Origin: a virus
Length of the DNA stretch: 31,618 nt
IMG/VR virus record: IMGVR_UViG_3300010970_000121
Location: 1 to 31,618 of that record
Reading direction: 5' to 3' (one strand)
Shown here one piece after another: positions 3,236 to 31,618 of this stretch (its first letter is position 1; each line of letters begins with the position of its first letter). Made by a program: the position numbers and the translations under genes. The notes under the pieces were generated by a model. That model ran no database searches and had not been told where the DNA came from. It worked only from the letters and a program-made list of their open reading frames with translations.

Positions 3236-3913
3236 ATGGCTATCAATCTCAAGAGTACGGGCGGTCTTGCCGCCAATGGCGTGAAGGTGCTTGTATATGG
3301 TCAAGCTGGCGCCGGTAAGACTTCATTGCTGAAGACCTTGCCCAACCCCATCGTATTGTCCGCTGAAGGCGGTCTGCTGTCCATCCAGGATGCTGACCTA
3401 CCCTACATCGAGATCAATTCGATGGAGACATTGTTGGAAGCTTACGAGTGGCTGACAACCAGCGAAGAAGCCAAAGAGTACAAGTCGGTTGGCTTGGACT
3501 CCATCAGCGAGATCGCCGAGGTCGTTCTCAACTTCGAGAAGAAGAACAACAAAGATCCACGCGCTGCCTACGGTGCGATGCAAGAGCAGATGGCTGACCT
3601 CATTCGCAACTTCCGCGACATCCCCGGCATGCACGTCTTCATGACTGCCAAGCTGGACAAGTCCAGCGATGAGATGGGTCGTCAACTGTACAGCCCGTCG
3701 ATGCCTGGCAACAAGACCGGCCAGTCGCTGCCCTACTTCTTTGATGAAGTTCTGGCGCTGCGCATTGAAAAAGATGGTGATGGAGTTGTCCAGCGCGCTT
3801 TGATGTGCGAAAGCGATGGCCTGTGGCTTGCTAAAGACCGCAGCGGCAAACTCGGTGCCTGGGAAGCCCCAGACCTTTCAGAAATCATCGCCAAGATCGG
3901 AGGCCGTAAATGA
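3236..3913 (+). CDS. Sak4-like RecA-fold ATPase, phage recombination/annealing protein
   Basis: The 225-residue protein has a single RecA-like P-loop core: Walker A GQAGAGKT at 22-29 and a Walker B-like strand VGLDSIS at 85-91. MTAKLDK at 136-142 sits where the third core strand is expected. Small phage ATPases of this length next to a DUF669 gene are the Sak4 type, which promote single-strand annealing together with their SSB-like partner. It is the first gene of the rightward early operon and its stop overlaps the next ATG (ATGA). I expect it to act in recombination-dependent replication with the nuclease at 5506 and the helicase at 6531. A general nucleotide-binding protein is the alternative. 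Confidence 0.85.
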   Translation: MAINLKSTGGLAANGVKVLVYGQAGAGKTSLLKTLPNPIVLSAEGGLLSIQDADLPYIEINSMETLLEAYEWLTTSEEAKEYKSVGLDSISEIAEVVLNFEKKNNKDPRAAYGAMQEQMADLIRNFRDIPGMHVFMTAKLDKSSDEMGRQLYSPSMPGNKTGQSLPYFFDEVLALRIEKDGDGVVQRALMCESDGLWLAKDRSGKLGAWEAPDLSEIIAKIGGRK

Positions 3914-4545: not shown

Positions 4546-5031
4546 ATGGCATTCCTAGACCAAACCTTCGAGGCAGACAGCCTCCCCGTTGGAAACACAA
4601 GCTACGGCGCAATCCCTGCTGGCTGGTACAACGCCACCATCCAGAAAGCCGAACTGAAGCCTACCAAGGCTGGCAATGGCCGACTCATTGGCCTGCGCCT
4701 GGCCATCACTGGCCCGACCCATCAAGGCCGGGTGGTGTTCTGCAACCTGAACATCAACAACCCCAACCCCCAGGCCGAAGAGATCGGACGCCAGCAGCTG
4801 GGTGAGATCATGCGTGCAATTGGCCTGGCCCGAGTTGGCGACACCGACGAATTGGTAGGCGGCATGTTGTCGGTCAAGTTGACGCTCAAGAACGACGACC
4901 AGGAAAACGATGTCAAGGGCTTCAAAGCCGTTGGTGGTTCGCTTCCAAAGGCAATTCCATCCTCCATGCCTGCACCAGCAGCATCTCAATCCGCACCTGC
5001 AAAGGCTGCACCACCCTGGGCCAAAAAATGA
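4546..5031 (+). CDS. DUF669-family protein, probable ssDNA-binding partner of Sak4
   Basis: The 161 residues fit DUF669. PAGWYNATIQKAELKPTKAG at 25-44 is an OB-like first hairpin, followed by a strand-rich core (residues about 48-75 and 105-130) and a low-complexity tail rich in Pro, Ala and Ser (about 136-157) ending PPWAKK. Known DUF669 proteins are encoded beside Sak4 or other annealing proteins and behave as SSB-like proteins. Here the gene sits three genes after Sak4 and before the nuclease and helicase. The flexible tail resembles that of bacterial SSBs, though the acidic tip is absent. Confidence 0.85.
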   Translation: MAFLDQTFEADSLPVGNTSYGAIPAGWYNATIQKAELKPTKAGNGRLIGLRLAITGPTHQGRVVFCNLNINNPNPQAEEIGRQQLGEIMRAIGLARVGDTDELVGGMLSVKLTLKNDDQENDVKGFKAVGGSLPKAIPSSMPAPAASQSAPAKAAPPWAKK

Positions 5032-5428: not shown

Positions 5429-5505
5429 AAGCGGATGCTGTCGGCGTGCCGAAAGGGTTTCGTCCAACAGTGCAGCGAGTACCCCACCTTAATACAGGAC
5501 AAGAT

Positions 5506-6537
5506 ATGAAAATCCCAGATCCAACAACACCCGTGGTCACCATCGCCACGTTGATTGACGAGGCGCATCAAAAGCGCCAGGAAAAGCCCCGCCCACACCT
5601 TGGCTGCTCTACCCTTGGTCACTCATGTGATCGTTGGCTCTGGCTGTCATTCCGCTGGGCCGTGGTCGAGAAATTCCCAGGTCGAATCCTGCGACTGTTC
5701 CGCCGTGGTCACCATGAGGAAAATTTCATTGTGTCCGATCTGCGCTCTGCTGGCGTTGATATCCGAGACACGACCGGCGCCCAGAGCCGGGTTGACTTTG
5801 GCACGCACGTTTCAGGCTCGATTGATGGCGTGATTCATTCTGGTGTGCCGGGCGCCGAGAAGGGCAAGCACATCGCCGAGTTCAAGACTCACGCCAAGAA
5901 GTCGTTTGATGCTGTGGTCAAAGAGGGCGTTGAGAAGTCCAAGTGGATGCACTACGTCCAGATGCAGGTCTACATGCTCGGATCCAAAATCGACCGGGCG
6001 CTGTACCTGGCGGTCTGCAAGGATGACGACCGCATCTACACCGAGCGAGTGCGCCTGGACAAAGAACTGGCCCAGAAATTTGTTGACCGCGGTCATCGCA
6101 TTGCCCTGACAGATCGACTGCCCGAGCCTATGAGCGCCGACCCGACATGGTACGAGTGCATGTATTGCCCAGGCCATGATTTCTGCTTTGGCAGCAAGAC
6201 CACCAAGGAAGTGAACTGCCGCACATGCGCCAACGCAACCGCCCTGAGTGACAGCACCTGGCACTGCTCCTTGTGGGATGACCTGATACCTATTGATGCC
6301 CAGAGAACCGGCTGTGAATCGCATGTCGTGCATCCAGATCTGGTGCCTTGGCAGCGCATCGACAGTCCAATTGAATGGGTCGCCAAATATCGCATCGGAA
6401 AGAAGGAAGTCATGAACGGTGAGCCTGGGCCTGATGTGTACTCATCCAAAGAGTTGCTGGCGAATCCCGAAGCCTGCGGCCAGCCCCACAACTTCATCAA
6501 CAAGATGCGTAGCGAATTTGGTGGCCGACTATGCTGA
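5506..6537 (+). CDS. PD-(D/E)XK exonuclease, RecB/Cas4-like with Cys cluster
   Basis: I chose ATG at 5506 because AGGAC lies about 8 bases ahead; the in-frame ATG at 5446 lies within the structured gap and lacks a clear site. The 343-residue protein carries the nuclease core: STLGH...R at 35-43, RGHHEEN at 67-73, D107 in SGSIDGV, E125-F-K127, and the Q-x-x-x-Y motif Q152-Y156. After it come many Cys (C218, C221, C227, C238, C241, C254, C270), suggestive of an Fe-S or zinc site like that of Cas4/AddB nucleases. It would resect DNA ends to make ssDNA for the Sak4/DUF669 pair. It overlaps the helicase start by 7 bases. Confidence 0.85.
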   Translation: MKIPDPTTPVVTIATLIDEAHQKRQEKPRPHLGCSTLGHSCDRWLWLSFRWAVVEKFPGRILRLFRRGHHEENFIVSDLRSAGVDIRDTTGAQSRVDFGTHVSGSIDGVIHSGVPGAEKGKHIAEFKTHAKKSFDAVVKEGVEKSKWMHYVQMQVYMLGSKIDRALYLAVCKDDDRIYTERVRLDKELAQKFVDRGHRIALTDRLPEPMSADPTWYECMYCPGHDFCFGSKTTKEVNCRTCANATALSDSTWHCSLWDDLIPIDAQRTGCESHVVHPDLVPWQRIDSPIEWVAKYRIGKKEVMNGEPGPDVYSSKELLANPEACGQPHNFINKMRSEFGGRLC

Positions 6538-9543: not shown

Positions 9544-9818
9544 AACTAGACCACGGCAACCCCAACCTGATGAAAAAAGCAGCAACCCGCGTTAACCCGC
9601 ACTCAAGCTCTTTGTCGTCATTTGTCTCCACCAGCGGAAGCAAGGAGCAAGCAAAGTACCGCACTGGCTTTGTGCCATCAGTCAAAGACCCAAAAGCTGT
9701 ACCGGCGCCCGCAATGAACCTCTGGGAATATCCGGTTTATGTGTCACCAAAGAACGAGTACGTGCGCCCCGGTGCCGATGACCATTTGAAGTTCAAGAGC
9801 GTGGGGAATCTGACATGA
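9540..9818 (+). CDS. Hypothetical phage protein with TTG start (92 aa)
   Basis: TTG at 9540 sits in a TTGA overlap with the preceding 31-residue ORF and has GAGGAG about 9 bases upstream. The protein is rich in Ser, Pro and Lys and predicted mostly disordered for residues about 1-55. A more structured end follows, with NLWEYPVYVSPKNEYVRPGA at 60-79. No domain is recognised. The stop overlaps the next ATG (ATGA). Confidence 0.65.
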   Translation: MKLDHGNPNLMKKAATRVNPHSSSLSSFVSTSGSKEQAKYRTGFVPSVKDPKAVPAPAMNLWEYPVYVSPKNEYVRPGADDHLKFKSVGNLT

Positions 9819-10195
9819 AAGAAGCATTGAAGCTGGCGCTTGATTTGGCGATCATGCACCACAGCGATGATGGGTATGCTGAACTGCGGTCAAAAGTTAG
9901 GCAGCTTGTTAAAGAAGCCTTGGCGCAGCCAGAGCAGGAGCCTGTGGCCTTTGGAATGCTTCGTGCTGACGGTTTAATTCTGGACGTAATTTGCCCAGAT
10001 GAACATGAGAGTTTTGCGGGCGAATACACAATCCCGCTCTACACCACCCCACCAAAGCGCCCGTGGGTAGGGCTGACGGATGAGTTCTGCATTACAAATA
10101 TGGTTGATGTGGGGCACTACAGTTTGCAAATCGTGTTTAAGTCGCGCAAGAACGCTGACGAGTTTAAAGCCGCCTTGAAGGAGAAGAACACATGA
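9815..10195 (+). CDS. Mosaic accessory protein, module family with linkers EALAQPEQEPV and RPWVGLTDE (126 aa)
   Basis: A helical N-terminus (1-33) is followed by the linker EALAQPEQEPV at 34-44, a variable strand-rich middle (45-74) and the second linker YTTPP..RPWVGLTDE at 76-90. A new C-terminal piece then ends FKAALKEKNT. Both linkers return in the next gene with near-identical DNA, so the protein looks assembled from exchangeable modules. Proteins with such linkers recur in environmental phages and have no known role. The gene ends in a junction sequence (AAGGAG..AACACATGA) shared with several neighbours. Confidence 0.78.
   Translation: MKEALKLALDLAIMHHSDDGYAELRSKVRQLVKEALAQPEQEPVAFGMLRADGLILDVICPDEHESFAGEYTIPLYTTPPKRPWVGLTDEFCITNMVDVGHYSLQIVFKSRKNADEFKAALKEKNT
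10057..10084 (+). repeat. 28-bp exact repeat, copy 1 (encodes RPWVGLTDE)
   Basis: The 28 bases here are identical to 10815-10842 and lie in the same reading frame in two neighbouring genes. Similarity extends upstream through the YT(T/A)PP codons. The DNA identity is tighter than needed for the protein, which points to recent duplication or recombination. Confidence 0.9.
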
Positions 10196-10962
10196 AAACG
10201 TGCATCAAATGCGGTAGCCATGCCTTCAACCTATACGCAGAAAAAATTGACCAAGGTGGCTTGTGTGATGTGCATTACTGGCAAGGCAGAGCGCACAGAG
10301 CAGAAGCCTTGGCACAGCCAGAGCAGCCTAGCTTTAACGAGTGGACAAACGCAAAACTAGCGTCACACTACTTCGACCTTTTGAAAGTTGTTGAACGGTA
10401 TGAAAAACATGGCGTAACTTGTCAGACATTTCGACACTTTGTCACCGAGCCTTGTGCTGAATGTAACTGTGTAGCACCCATCACCGCCATCAAAGAAGCC
10501 TTGGCACAGGACGAGCAGGAGCCTTGTGGTGGTTGCGGAGGTTCCGGTTGGGTTCCTCGTGACCCCGACATTGGCACAGACCAAGAATGTTTTGATTGCA
10601 ATGGTTCTGGTGCGCAGCCAGAGCAGGAGCCTGTGGCGTGGATTATTGAATACGAAGTGCGTGCTGGCGGCACGAACAGAGGCTCAAGCCTCAAAAAGTT
10701 TGATTACGTTTGGCATAAATGTAGTTTTGTTTCAGAGGATAAGGATGCCGAATTAGACGCAATTACGTGGCGCAACAGAAAAGAAACGCCCCTCTACACC
10801 GCCCCACCAGCACAGCGCCCGTGGGTAGGGCTGACGGATGAGCCTACATATACGGAACAACAGATCGCCAACGCGTGCTGGGCCGCTGAAATATCGGACA
10901 GCAAATGCGAAAGCCTTTTGATTGCTCTGCAAGAAGCCGAACTGAAAGAACTCAACACATGA
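10192..10962 (+). CDS. Mosaic Cys-rich accessory protein with three linker copies and DnaJ-like zinc motif (256 aa)
   Basis: The N-terminus has CIKC at 4-7 and C25, suggesting a small zinc site. The linker occurs as AEALAQPEQP (38-46), KEALAQDEQEP (101-111) and AQPEQEPV (141-148). Between the last two lies a DnaJ-type pair of zinc-knuckle motifs, CGGCGGSG at 112-119 and CFDCNGSG at 133-140. YTAPP..RPWVGLTDE at 202-217 is the second linker type. The end, LQEAELKELNT, matches the conserved seam of the array. It reads as several modules joined in frame: a chimera rather than one ancient domain. Function unknown. Confidence 0.78.
   Translation: MKTCIKCGSHAFNLYAEKIDQGGLCDVHYWQGRAHRAEALAQPEQPSFNEWTNAKLASHYFDLLKVVERYEKHGVTCQTFRHFVTEPCAECNCVAPITAIKEALAQDEQEPCGGCGGSGWVPRDPDIGTDQECFDCNGSGAQPEQEPVAWIIEYEVRAGGTNRGSSLKKFDYVWHKCSFVSEDKDAELDAITWRNRKETPLYTAPPAQRPWVGLTDEPTYTEQQIANACWAAEISDSKCESLLIALQEAELKELNT
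10815..10842 (+). repeat. 28-bp exact repeat, copy 2 (encodes RPWVGLTDE)
   Basis: Identical to 10057-10084 and in the same frame. A three-base insertion in the codons just upstream separates the two flanks (PPKRP in the first copy, PPAQRP here). Confidence 0.9.
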
Positions 10963-11105
10963 CCCGCGTAGAAGCCTTGGAAATTATCAAACTGCTGTCG
11001 GCGCTTGAGTCGTGGTCGTTCTCGTTGAAGGAGCGACTGCCTACCTACCTGATCGACCAGATAGCTGCATCAATCGAAGTACTAGAGAAAGAGGTGTTGA
11101 AATGA
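10959..11105 (+). CDS. Small helical accessory protein (48 aa)
   Basis: ATG at 10959 follows the conserved AACACATGA seam. The product begins MTRVEALEIIKLLSALESW and is almost wholly alpha-helical with heptad-like hydrophobics, so it may form a dimeric coiled coil or bind a partner. The stop at 11103-11105 overlaps the next ATG. Unlike its neighbours it does not end in Asn-Thr. An in-frame ATG at 10905 lies inside the previous gene and is less likely. Confidence 0.65.
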   Translation: MTRVEALEIIKLLSALESWSFSLKERLPTYLIDQIAASIEVLEKEVLK

Positions 11106-11302
11106 ACGAACGAGACAAAGAGCTTGCAAAGCAGGCTTGCACAGAAAACGATTGGGACACATACGTTCACATAACAAAGTTCGCCGCCCTCATCCGTGCC
11201 GACGAGCGTGAGGCGCTAATCCGCTATTTTGATGGTCACTGGCGCAGCGATTGGTCTGACGGCCAGATCATAGAAGCACTTGAGGCAAGGGGAAACACAT
11301 GA
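11102..11302 (+). CDS. Accessory protein of unknown function (66 aa)
   Basis: ATG at 11102 is in an ATGA overlap. The sequence is charged, with FAALIRADEREALIRYFDGH at about 26-45, an amphipathic helix similar to those in many phage accessory proteins built around an IRADERE segment. It ends LEARGNT at a conserved seam. No catalytic residues stand out. Confidence 0.7.
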   Translation: MNERDKELAKQACTENDWDTYVHITKFAALIRADEREALIRYFDGHWRSDWSDGQIIEALEARGNT

Positions 11303-11508
11303 AACGTATTGACTACTTTTGGCCAAAAGCCGTAACACATATCACTGGAATTATTTTTCTCACTCAACTTGTGACTGAATTTATTAGCACCAGAAAAGAG
11401 GGTTTTGAATGGGTATTGCCAGTGAGCGGAGCACTGTTTGCAGTTGCAATTGCATGGACTTTGTATGCCATGGTGATGAATGCAATCCAAGCAAGGGGAA
11501 ACACATGA
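11299..11508 (+). CDS. Two-helix membrane protein (69 aa)
   Basis: Two hydrophobic stretches, about residues 12-31 and 38-62, are separated by a short charged loop (STRKEGFE). This gives a hairpin with both ends on one side, by the positive-inside rule probably the cytoplasm. It ends IQARGNT and so shares the array's seam on both sides. Small hairpin membrane proteins of phages can serve in exclusion or lysis control, but nothing here decides. It is separate from the lysis cassette on the other strand. Confidence 0.72.
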   Translation: MKRIDYFWPKAVTHITGIIFLTQLVTEFISTRKEGFEWVLPVSGALFAVAIAWTLYAMVMNAIQARGNT

Positions 11509-11654
11509 ACTGGGAGCTTGAAAAAGAACGGGCGCTGTTTGAGGCGGCACTTAAAAATGCGATTGCATGGCAAAACAGGTGTGTTGAACTTTGGGAGATT
11601 ATTGAAATGTTTTGTTTAGACGTCGAAGCCAAACTCAAGGAAAAGAACACATGA
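11505..11654 (+). CDS. Small helical accessory protein (49 aa)
   Basis: ATG at 11505 follows a conserved seam. MNWELEKERALFEAALKNAI is one long amphipathic helix continuing through WQNRCVELWEIIEMF; the end is AKLKEKNT, the seam peptide. The fraction of Glu, Lys and Leu suggests a coiled coil. Nothing indicates a target. Confidence 0.65.
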   Translation: MNWELEKERALFEAALKNAIAWQNRCVELWEIIEMFCLDVEAKLKEKNT

Positions 11655-11842
11655 CCGACTACCTAGCCGGGGGCGCGGAGTTCCTGTACCCGCACGCTGG
11701 CGACCCGCCAGCCCCAGAGAATGTGAAGGTGCTGCTGCTTACCCGTGGCGGCGTCTGTACTACCGGCCACTGGCACCGTGACTGGTGCCTGGGCTGGCTA
11801 CCCCTACCCAAACGCAACATGAAAAAGGAAGATCAAAAGTGA
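11651..11842 (+). CDS. Small accessory protein ending in a WLPLPKR motif (63 aa)
   Basis: From ATG at 11651 the protein has a short variable head (about 1-22) and then VKVLLLTRGGVCTTGHW and WCLGWLPLPKR (45-55). A strand, a TGHW turn and a terminal W.PLP motif resemble the small DUF551-type proteins often found in phage accessory regions. That assignment is by eye and uncertain. The last part, NMKKEDQK, overlaps the next start (GTGA). Confidence 0.65.
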   Translation: MTDYLAGGAEFLYPHAGDPPAPENVKVLLLTRGGVCTTGHWHRDWCLGWLPLPKRNMKKEDQK

Positions 11843-29752: not shown

Positions 29753-30793
29753 TTACGTCTCGATCAAGCGAACGCCAGCAAACGGGTCTCGCACGGAACT
29801 GACCATACGCTTCTCTGCGTACAGAGTAACGAAGCCGGGGGTCGTTTGTTCCATTGCTTGAACAGTCATTTCTTCAACATCGCAGATATTGAGGAATCGA
29901 GGCCAGTTTGCCAGGTACACGGGGATTGCTCCGTCTGTACCGGTTGCGTCAAGGTAGGGATTCGGGATGACGGGGAAGCCAAGGATGTTGACTGCCGGGC
30001 CTTCGCCAAGCTCACCAGTTTCCACCAAGGAATAGCCGCCAGCGCCGTGAGCGTATTGACGGATTGCGCTGATGTAGCTGGGGTGCATTTGCCATGCGGT
30101 GCCGGGGATGTTCCAGTATTGAGGTGGCAACGCTGCCGCCATTTCAGCCAGAGATTCGTAGTCCACAGACGTGTGGATATGACCAACGGTAGCCAGGGTG
30201 TGCAAACCATTGGTGATGCTGGTTCCAGACGTTCCGAAGGCCGCTGTAGCGCCCGCAGCGCCAGGGTAGCTGTTCAGGCCACGCAAGCCGTCAGTGCCGC
30301 CAGTGGTCGTGGTGGTAGTTCCAGCCTGGTCATCGTTCAGGCCCATTGAGGCGCCTTCGATAGCCGCAAATTCCATCATCAGGTCTTCGACCAATTCGGA
30401 CTCAAGTCCATTGATGTCTGACATGGCTGCCGTGCGGATCGGCAACTGAGCCGTGATCACGCGAGTGGGCAATTGCCAGATCGTGGTGTTGGTGCCGGGC
30501 GTGCCGCTGTTGGGGGTAAACGTGTAGCCCCAAGGGTTTGTTTGGTTGGCCGCATTACCGGTCTTGGCAACAAATTGGGCGCTAGAGCCGTCAACTTTTT
30601 TCTGCCGAGCATAAACACGGAATGGGTTTGCATAACGCAGTGCAGCGAATGCGTCATCGAAATAGGTCTTGCCGCCTTGACCATCGCCGCTACCACCCAA
30701 CGAGGCTGCTTCGCGTAAATCAATAGTGACTTTTTCTCCGGTTTCCAGAGTTTGCTTAATGCCGTCGAGGATTTTTTCGGTAATGGTTTTCAT
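29753..30793 (-). CDS. Major capsid protein (HK97-like), paralog 1
   Basis: I use ATG at 30793 with GGAAG ahead; a TTG four codons upstream is less likely. The 346-residue protein has a short charged N-terminus (1-30), a segment QGGKTYFDDAFAALRYANPF near 39-58, AMSDINGLESELVEDLMMEF (about 124-142) forming the spine helix, a Gly/Thr-rich stretch with TDGLRGLNSYPG, and the end TLYAEKRMVSSVRDPFAGVR. This is the pattern of HK97-fold capsid proteins without a scaffold delta domain. Another homologous capsid gene lies just upstream. Confidence 0.85.
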   Translation of the reverse strand: MKTITEKILDGIKQTLETGEKVTIDLREAASLGGSGDGQGGKTYFDDAFAALRYANPFRVYARQKKVDGSSAQFVAKTGNAANQTNPWGYTFTPNSGTPGTNTTIWQLPTRVITAQLPIRTAAMSDINGLESELVEDLMMEFAAIEGASMGLNDDQAGTTTTTTGGTDGLRGLNSYPGAAGATAAFGTSGTSITNGLHTLATVGHIHTSVDYESLAEMAAALPPQYWNIPGTAWQMHPSYISAIRQYAHGAGGYSLVETGELGEGPAVNILGFPVIPNPYLDATGTDGAIPVYLANWPRFLNICDVEEMTVQAMEQTTPGFVTLYAEKRMVSSVRDPFAGVRLIET

Positions 30794-30822
30794 GGTTTCT
30801 TCCAAGTTAGTTTCACCAATAA

Positions 30823-30855: not shown

Positions 30856-31618
30856 TTAAGCAGCAGCAGTGCCGGTCGAGCGGTAACGCACCAGGGCGTT
30901 AGGATCGCGCACCGAAGTTGCCAGACGCTTCTCACCGTAGAAGGTGATGTAGCCAGGCAGGGTTTGGTCATAGCGACGCATCACCATGTTCAGGCGGTCG
31001 ATAATCGTGTGACCACGAGTCCAGTCGCCGAAGAACATTGGGTACTTGCTCACAGTGCCAGCGGCGCCGGTAGCCAATTGGCTTGGTGCGTCCAGGTACT
31101 TGTTGACCACCACGTCGAAGCCCAACAGTTGACCGACGATACCATTGACCGACAGAGATTCAACAGAGTTGAAAATCGGACGACCGTTGGTGTCTTGCAG
31201 ACCACGGATGGCTTGCAACAGGATCGGGCTGACCATGAAGCGGGCGCTTTCAGTCCAGTACTGTTGAGGCAAAGCGTAGATCGTGTTGATCACGTCTTTG
31301 TACTGGATGTTGTTCGCGCCAACGGTGTTCGCATTGGTGGTCAACTGGTCGTAGGTTGCCAGGCTGTGCAAGCCAGTCGTGGAACCAGTACCGGAAGTAC
31401 CAAATGCGGGAGTGGAGGTCGTGCCGCCAGCGTAGGTTGCGTTTGAGCCAGGGTACTGATTCAAGCCACGCAGACCATCAGCGCCACCAGTGGTAACGGA
31501 AGAACCGGTGCCAGTTTGGTCGTTGTTGGAAATCATGGATTGAGCTTCAGACTGGGCAAACTCAGCCAGCATGTCGTCAACGATGTTGGCTTCCAGGCCG
31601 TCGATGTCGTCCAGAGCC
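30856..31618 (-). CDS. Major capsid protein paralog 2 (5' end outside the window)
   Basis: The 253 visible residues start within the gene at ALDDIDGLEANIVDDMLAEF, which matches the equivalent helix of the neighbouring capsid protein (MSDINGLESELVEDLMMEF). Shared features continue: GGADGLRGLNQYPG, AFGTSGTGSTTGLHSLATYD, ALPQQYW, LLGFDVVVNKYLDA and FYGEKRLATSVRDPNALVRY, ending STGTAAA. The frame stays open to 31618. Its N-terminal ~130 residues lie beyond the edge. Because it is transcribed first, it may be the main capsid subunit, with 29753-30793 as the variant. Confidence 0.85.
   Translation of the reverse strand, partial: ALDDIDGLEANIVDDMLAEFAQSEAQSMISNNDQTGTGSSVTTGGADGLRGLNQYPGSNATYAGGTTSTPAFGTSGTGSTTGLHSLATYDQLTTNANTVGANNIQYKDVINTIYALPQQYWTESARFMVSPILLQAIRGLQDTNGRPIFNSVESLSVNGIVGQLLGFDVVVNKYLDAPSQLATGAAGTVSKYPMFFGDWTRGHTIIDRLNMVMRRYDQTLPGYITFYGEKRLATSVRDPNALVRYRSTGTAAA

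Follow-up and report, generated by a model that had tools for sequence, protein, structure and literature searches.

A recurrent DNA-conserved seam at coupled gene junctions in phage accessory arrays, a likely joint of gene gain and loss

The window analysed here is an entire IMG/VR virus record (IMGVR_UViG_3300010970_000121, 31,618 bp). It contains an array of small accessory genes on the + strand, and five of the junctions of this array carry a short repeated sequence, which we call the seam. The genes and seams of the array are as follows.

9815..10195, + strand: array gene 1, 126 aa, with PEQEPVA / RPWVGLTDE modules and C-terminus ALKEKNT; relatives in L260-L339
10178..10195, + strand: seam 1, AAGGAGAAGAACACATGA, KE-type; overlaps the start of gene 2 at 10192
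10192..10962, + strand: array gene 2, 256 aa, with a cysteine-rich middle, PEQEPVA / RPWVGLTDE modules and C-terminus ELKELNT
10945..10962, + strand: seam 2, AAAGAACTCAACACATGA; overlaps the start of gene 3 at 10959; weak ribosome site
10959..11105, + strand: array gene 3, 48 aa, MTRVEALEIIKLLSALESW; a seam at its start and another kind of junction (TTGAAATGA) at its end
11102..11302, + strand: array gene 4, 66 aa, ADEREA-type, C-terminus EARGNT; missing from L358
11286..11302, + strand: seam 3, CAAGGGGAAACACATGA, ARGNT type
11299..11508, + strand: array gene 5, 69 aa, hydrophobic, C-terminus NAIQARGNT; missing from L358
11492..11508, + strand: seam 4, CAAGGGGAAACACATGA, exactly the same as seam 3
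11505..11654, + strand: array gene 6, 49 aa, C-terminus VEAKLKEKNT; missing from L358
11637..11654, + strand: seam 5, AAGGAAAAGAACACATGA; overlaps the start of gene 7 at 11651
11651..11842, + strand: array gene 7, 63 aa, ending in a GTGA-type junction; its L358 homologue directly follows gene 3

Array gene 5 gave a sub-threshold match to Phage_holin_2. The core of the seam, AACACATGA, occurs in five exact copies, all on the + strand (10187-10195, 10954-10962, 11294-11302, 11500-11508 and 11646-11654), and no further copy was found elsewhere in the 31,618 bp. By chance 0.59 copies are expected, and the maximum in any of 100 shuffles was 3. Simple chance is therefore ruled out as the source of the copies, both by these shuffles and by a permuted-spacer control. 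In every copy, TGA closes one ORF and the overlapping ATG opens the next. An AAGG-type ribosome site lies just 5' of four of the five copies (AAGGAGAAG, AAGGGGA twice, and AAGGAAAAG), and the seam ending at 10962 has only a weak one, AAAGAACTC. The C-termini encoded at the five seams are, in order, KEKNT, KELNT, ARGNT, ARGNT and KEKNT. Two seam haplotypes are thus present in the window, (EAK)LKE(K/L)NT and (AI)(R/Q/E)ARGNT. The 12 nt before the ATG are identical between the starts at 11299 and 11505 (12/12) and nearly so between those at 10192 and 11651 (11/12). A sequence-only reading of this DNA had proposed that one constant seam with a near-identical ribosome site joins five neighbouring genes with unrelated bodies. 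The positions, the overlap of stop and start and the shared C-termini were confirmed, and the AAGG site holds for four junctions only. The run of genes is not unbroken, because the gene at 10959-11105 ends unseamed (VLEKEVLK, junction TTGAAATGA), and the two haplotypes take the place of one constant seam. The bodies are not all unrelated either, since genes 1 and 2 are homologous and have the PEQEPVA and RPWVGLTDE modules in common (blastp E 2e-7); the rest share only about the last 10 residues.

Outside the window, the seam is widespread among freshwater phages that otherwise differ. Pattern scans of IMG/VR found AAGGRRAANAACACATGA in at least 120 stretches and CAAGGGGAAACACATGA in at least 119. 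The permuted-spacer control, CAAGGGGACAACAATGA, gave 19 matches, some of which belong to yet another seam dialect (ARGQQ): in L245, L247 and L253, CAAGGGGACAACAATGA occurs twice, 209 bp apart. We also sampled 1380 ORF/ORF junctions from loci chosen for proteins similar to gene 1, irrespective of the seam. In this sample, the 5-mer that most often precedes ATGA is AACAC (90/1380, with a runner-up at 24), a count to which the query family's own tail contributes. In 154 protein-chosen loci, AACAC accounts for 18% of 748 coupled junctions. It precedes 107 of 699 coupled ATGA starts (15%) and only 2 of 873 ATGC/ATGG/ATGT starts, which rules out a general start-site preference. The seam is therefore not scattered over random junctions throughout the genome, as AACAC is restricted to coupled junctions with ATGA. 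Among whole seam-phage records, the seam pattern is present in 25 of 29 and a reversed control in 1. Loci picked by the seam pattern were left out of the main rate comparisons, including the real-gene junction control given below.

The seam is conserved as DNA rather than as peptide. The exact 30-mer GAAGCCAAACTCAAGGAGAAGAACACATGA is found in at least 120 IMG/VR stretches, whereas eight synonymous versions of it, assembled from common codons, are found together in 15. Among tails that read EAKLKEKNT, 22 of 32 have the identical 30-mer. In EAKLKE.NT tails, Leu is encoded by CTC in 76% (background 8%) and Ala by GCC in 95% (background 26%). When seams were aligned with one per upstream cluster, conservation extended about 30 nt upstream and was absent past the ATGA. 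The identical 30 bases, the biased Leu and Ala codons and the rarity of synonymous versions therefore indicate that the seam is inherited or maintained as DNA. These data bear on the idea that the seam peptide (LKEKNT or ARGNT) has a function in the protein, for example as a tag or degron. The same C-terminal residues do end many proteins, as such a function would have it, but it is the codons that are conserved, and the tail changes with the array (ARGQA, DGDA, RGKT) within one protein family. Furthermore, AACAC is rare before other in-frame NTGA stops (17 vs 188). We thus regard a function of the peptide as very improbable.

The genes that flank the seam vary while the seam is kept. Around the 421 distinct seams, genes of 213 upstream clusters meet genes of 255 downstream clusters in 348 different pairings, and 94 genes run from seam to seam. 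Fifty-one downstream families follow upstream genes that are unrelated to one another, and both settings have the seam. Conservation of the seam is thus not a by-product of the same genes always lying in the same order; gene order varies. The shared tail might nevertheless be the homologous C-terminus of one or two modular families (WVGLTDEE...EAKLKEKNT and EREACA...AIRARGNT), with the genes being paralogous. A WVGLT-type body precedes 146 of 227 KE.NT seams, an EREAC-type body, defined by a loose motif, precedes 104 of 119 RGNT seams, and the window itself has a homologous pair in genes 1 and 2. The partner contig carries the seam at 0.85 where it has a homologue of the upstream gene, as expected of paralogues; where only the downstream gene is shared, it does so at 0.36, against a base rate of 0.25. 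The seam therefore acts as the 3' end of the gene that it closes, and it mostly travels with the upstream gene, whose 3' end contains it. On the other hand, 81 KE.NT and 15 RGNT seams lie under bodies that lack these motifs, and gene 5 is hydrophobic and has relatives elsewhere that bear other tails. Paralogy alone would not hold synonymous sites identical in widely diverged bodies. We consider common descent of the tails improbable as the whole explanation.

Homology between contigs tends to break at the seam. DNA homology between contigs usually sets in 0-30 nt ahead of the seam ATG and stops 0-10 nt past it. Within 10 nt after the seam ATG there are 1022 alignment ends, far above most neighbouring bins, although BLAST-based breakpoints somewhat favour conserved islands and alignment ends there are partly expected from the alignment itself. 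At least one homology switch was seen at 88 of 98 seams and at 195 of 294 other junctions. A first comparison (82% vs 50%) made seams appear as special breakpoints, and this was lost when the control was restricted to junctions of real genes with homologues required for both flanking genes. Under that control, seams have a switch/(switch+span) ratio of 0.95, and the other coupled junctions have one of 0.94. This equality favours a second explanation, namely that the seam is a translation-coupling element under selection, an optimal re-initiation site, and that illegitimate recombination occurs anywhere while joins at gene ends survive. The presence of a ribosome site in nearly every seam and of ATGA in all of them agrees with it. 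Two of the observations given above speak against translation coupling: synonymous Ala and Leu positions upstream of the ribosome site are also conserved, and AACAC is almost absent at uncoupled starts.

Gain and loss of genes exactly at seams, which the sequence-only reading had proposed to look for, was seen in related contig pairs. The members of such pairs differ by exactly seam-to-seam DNA, and one seam remains in the shorter contig. Four pairs are given here.

L389/L393: 155 nt, one gene, between matching seams
L335/L362: 674 nt, one gene, between matching seams
L411/L406: 152 nt, one gene, between matching seams
L186/L164: 248 nt, one gene, between matching seams

Since complete genes are thus found or missing precisely from one seam to the next, the seams resemble joints held in common at which genes are added, dropped or swapped. 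A related event is found in L358, where gene 3 is followed directly by gene 7 and genes 4-6 (11102-11654) are absent. The ends of this event do not match, because its left end is a TTGAA junction and not a seam. In L361, the homologues of window genes 3 and 4 are separated by about 1.2 kb that holds several other ORFs (window 11102 compared with L361/L313). AACAC stands at both ends of 9 of 55 cassette indels, against 4.7 expected from locus-matched pairs (p 0.023), an excess of about twofold. The 15 nt before the two ATGs of cassette indels have a similarity of 8.07 against 6.51 expected (p < 0.0005). The excess of matching seams at cassette indel ends is thus real but moderate. In the other 46 of the 55, at least one end is without AACAC, and such a majority of non-matching ends is what translation coupling with illegitimate recombination would give.

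The seam also has local dialects. In 14 other contigs, the relatives of gene 5 have the tails ARGTT, ARGQA, ARGNT, RGKT, DGDA and others. The seam before these genes equals the seam after them in 10 of 15 contigs, including the window, where 2.9 are expected (p < 5e-5). Seam-to-seam insertion would give such matching dialects on both sides of the same gene, and so would joint transfer of a block. Across all junctions, the within-genome dialect effect is only 1.5-2.2 fold. That arrays differ in dialect (NT, QA, KT, DA), each repeated locally, is a further point against translation coupling.

DNA-conserved motifs are present inside the genes as well.

9917..9949, + strand: internal connector in gene 1, GCCTTGGCGCAGCCAGAGCAGGAGCCTGTGGCC (ALAQPEQEPVA), conserved as DNA
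10058..10084, + strand: internal connector in gene 1, CGCCCGTGGGTAGGGCTGACGGATGAG (RPWVGLTDE), conserved as DNA
10816..10842, + strand: internal RPWVGLTDE connector in gene 2, 27 nt identical to the gene 1 copy

Another site with a motif of the ALAQPEQEPVA / RPWVGLTDE kind, also conserved as DNA, lies at 10612-10638. In ALAQPEQEPV across contigs, the first Ala is GCC in 42/46 and the second is GCA in 42/46. WVGLTDEE prefers the codons GGG, CTG and ACG, and EREACA is likewise conserved as DNA. Inter-contig homology also begins and ends at these internal motifs, which is partly expected at any conserved island. The internal motifs suggest that parts of genes are shuffled as well as whole genes. 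Since BLAST breakpoints favour conserved islands, we take the breakpoint, cassette-indel and internal-motif homology results as supporting and not decisive. The internal motifs have no start-site role and are conserved as DNA all the same, which weakens a purely translational explanation. With the evidence of both kinds taken together, we judge translation coupling as the sole basis of the seam to be unlikely, though clearly the strongest of the alternatives.

The window encodes candidate functions for such recombination.

3236..3913, + strand: Sak4-like ssDNA annealing protein, candidate recombinase (PHROG 124, E 1.5e-59; Pfam AAA_24)
4546..5031, + strand: DUF669 / phage SSB (Pfam DUF669; PHROG 6015 SSB, E 2.5e-27)
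5446..6537, + strand: Cas4-domain exonuclease (PHROG 1990, E 7e-95)

A VRR-NUC nuclease is also encoded. Sak4 of HK620 anneals single strands, and its DUF669 SSB stimulates annealing (PMC5928155). Sak4 was found in 5 of 33 seam-phage records, two of these weak, and no RecT was found in 29; these records thus gave no recombinase in common. Sak4 as a common cause is accordingly unsupported. A family A DNA polymerase is present in 12 of 29 seam-phage records, and DSL-LC05 has a family B polymerase. Thus, the seam is common to phages with different replication and recombination genes. Among 84,980 species genomes, the longer KE-type seam was found in only two contigs (L340 and L341), from a Rhodoferax MAG and a betaproteobacterial MAG. 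This suggests rarely integrated phages of Burkholderiales. The lake phages DSL-LC04/05 carry near copies of the seam. The host group is a guess, because it is drawn from two MAG contigs and the near copies in lake phages. Two features of the window lie outside the array. At 14-330, a repeated Arg/Pro/Gly-rich unit can be read in two frames and is a probable tandem repeat at this end of the contig. On the - strand, the ORFs at 29753-30805 and 30856-31572 are alike near their C-termini (TTPGFVTLYAEKR / QTLPGYITFYGEKR, SVRDP) and could be a duplicated head-protein gene; the former has a weak match to a major head protein family.

From these results, we favour the reading that the seams are short boundary sequences that promote recombination and at the same time serve as coupled start sites, and we hold it to be probable, with some reserve. 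In this model, a seam of about 18-30 nt at the 3' end of each small accessory gene plays three roles at once: it encodes the last 6-10 residues, provides the ribosome site of the next gene, and forms the ATGA stop/start joint. Seam DNA has been copied from one gene to another and from one phage to another. A pair of seams, in the same array or in co-infecting phages, would then offer enough identity for annealing-type or slippage recombination, and this would add, delete or swap whole genes with the coupled reading frame intact. Seam identity would drive the events, and a phage annealase, here the Sak4-SSB-exonuclease set, may perform them. The seam is likely a recombination joint, with support that is statistical and moderate, and it should be seen as a contributor to the mosaicism of the array and not as its sole cause. 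The cassette system that the sequence-only reading had envisaged is thus borne out in the varied flanks and in the gain and loss at seams; it is tempered by the other coupled junctions, which are equal breakpoints, by the seam following its upstream gene, and by precedents for the idea. More tentatively, and with more doubt than confidence, freshwater phages with different replication machinery may have in common an assembly grammar of a few DNA-conserved connectors, terminal (GAAGCCAAACTCAAGGAGAAGAACACATGA, GCCATCCGAGCAAGGGGAAACACATGA) and internal (ALAQPEQEPVA, RPWVGLTDEE, EREACA), by which genes and gene parts are recombined in frame.

Several known systems resemble the seam in part. T4-type mobile regulatory cassettes are repeated promoter/stem-loop elements between genes and have been proposed to mediate modular shuffling. 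The seam implies no promoter. With integron-like gene cassettes the sole likeness is a joint at each gene's 3' end, and the genes searched against Pfam and PHROG included no integrase. In the ninR region of lambda, tightly packed small genes are joined by ATGA beside recombination functions (Kroger & Hobom 1982, as cited in PMC8022706). At most 8 of 12 nt before the ATG are alike at ninR junctions, whereas two pairs in the window reach 12/12 and 11/12. Start Associated Sequences (SAS) of Cluster K mycobacteriophages are short repeats at many unrelated gene starts of one genome that overlap the ribosome site; their extended form is subcluster-specific, and they were named as possible targets of homologous recombination (PMC3203893). 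SAS have inverted repeats and precede the starts, in many cases within fairly large gaps between genes, whereas the seam lies at overlapping ATGA junctions and encodes a shared C-terminus. The seam, AAGG(n)AACACATGA within the upstream ORF, does not correspond to the 13 bp SAS consensus GGGATAGGAGCCC.

The closest precedents are boundary sequences. PMC3029335 cites Susskind & Botstein 1978 and Clark et al. 2001 for the proposal that homologous recombination acts on short conserved sequences at the boundaries of lambdoid genes or modules. The seam is like them, as far as they are described there, in being a short DNA repeated at boundaries and proposed to shuffle modules by homologous recombination. 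It shows three properties of a boundary sequence, namely near-identical DNA at several boundaries, varied flanks, and genes that are gained, lost or swapped from one copy of the repeat to another. It differs from the lambdoid sequences in that it lies inside coding sequence and joins a C-terminus, a ribosome site and a start, and in that it occurs up to seven times per array with identical DNA across phages with different replication genes. In Cluster I mycobacteriophages, the DNA for the C-terminal 18 residues is common to the neighbouring genes 67 and 68 of Island3, and one gene was gained or lost between repeats of about 50 bp, which was called the first mycobacteriophage example (PMC3029335). 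The Island3 event is of the same type as the seam-to-seam indels; Island3 is a single case, whereas the seam recurs in at least a hundred contigs. The sequence-only reading knew of no published scheme of gene stacking by recombination of this sort; the boundary-sequence idea is already published in PMC3029335 and, by its account, in the work cited there. The literature searched contained no description of the seam's scale and form. In summary, the class of mechanism is known for other phages and the large scale of the seam appears to be new. Found in at least a hundred contigs, with several dialects, with motifs of its kind inside genes and with pairs of contigs that differ cleanly by a gene, the seam offers a natural system for separating boundary-driven from illegitimate recombination, and a simple means to locate exchangeable accessory genes in metagenomes.
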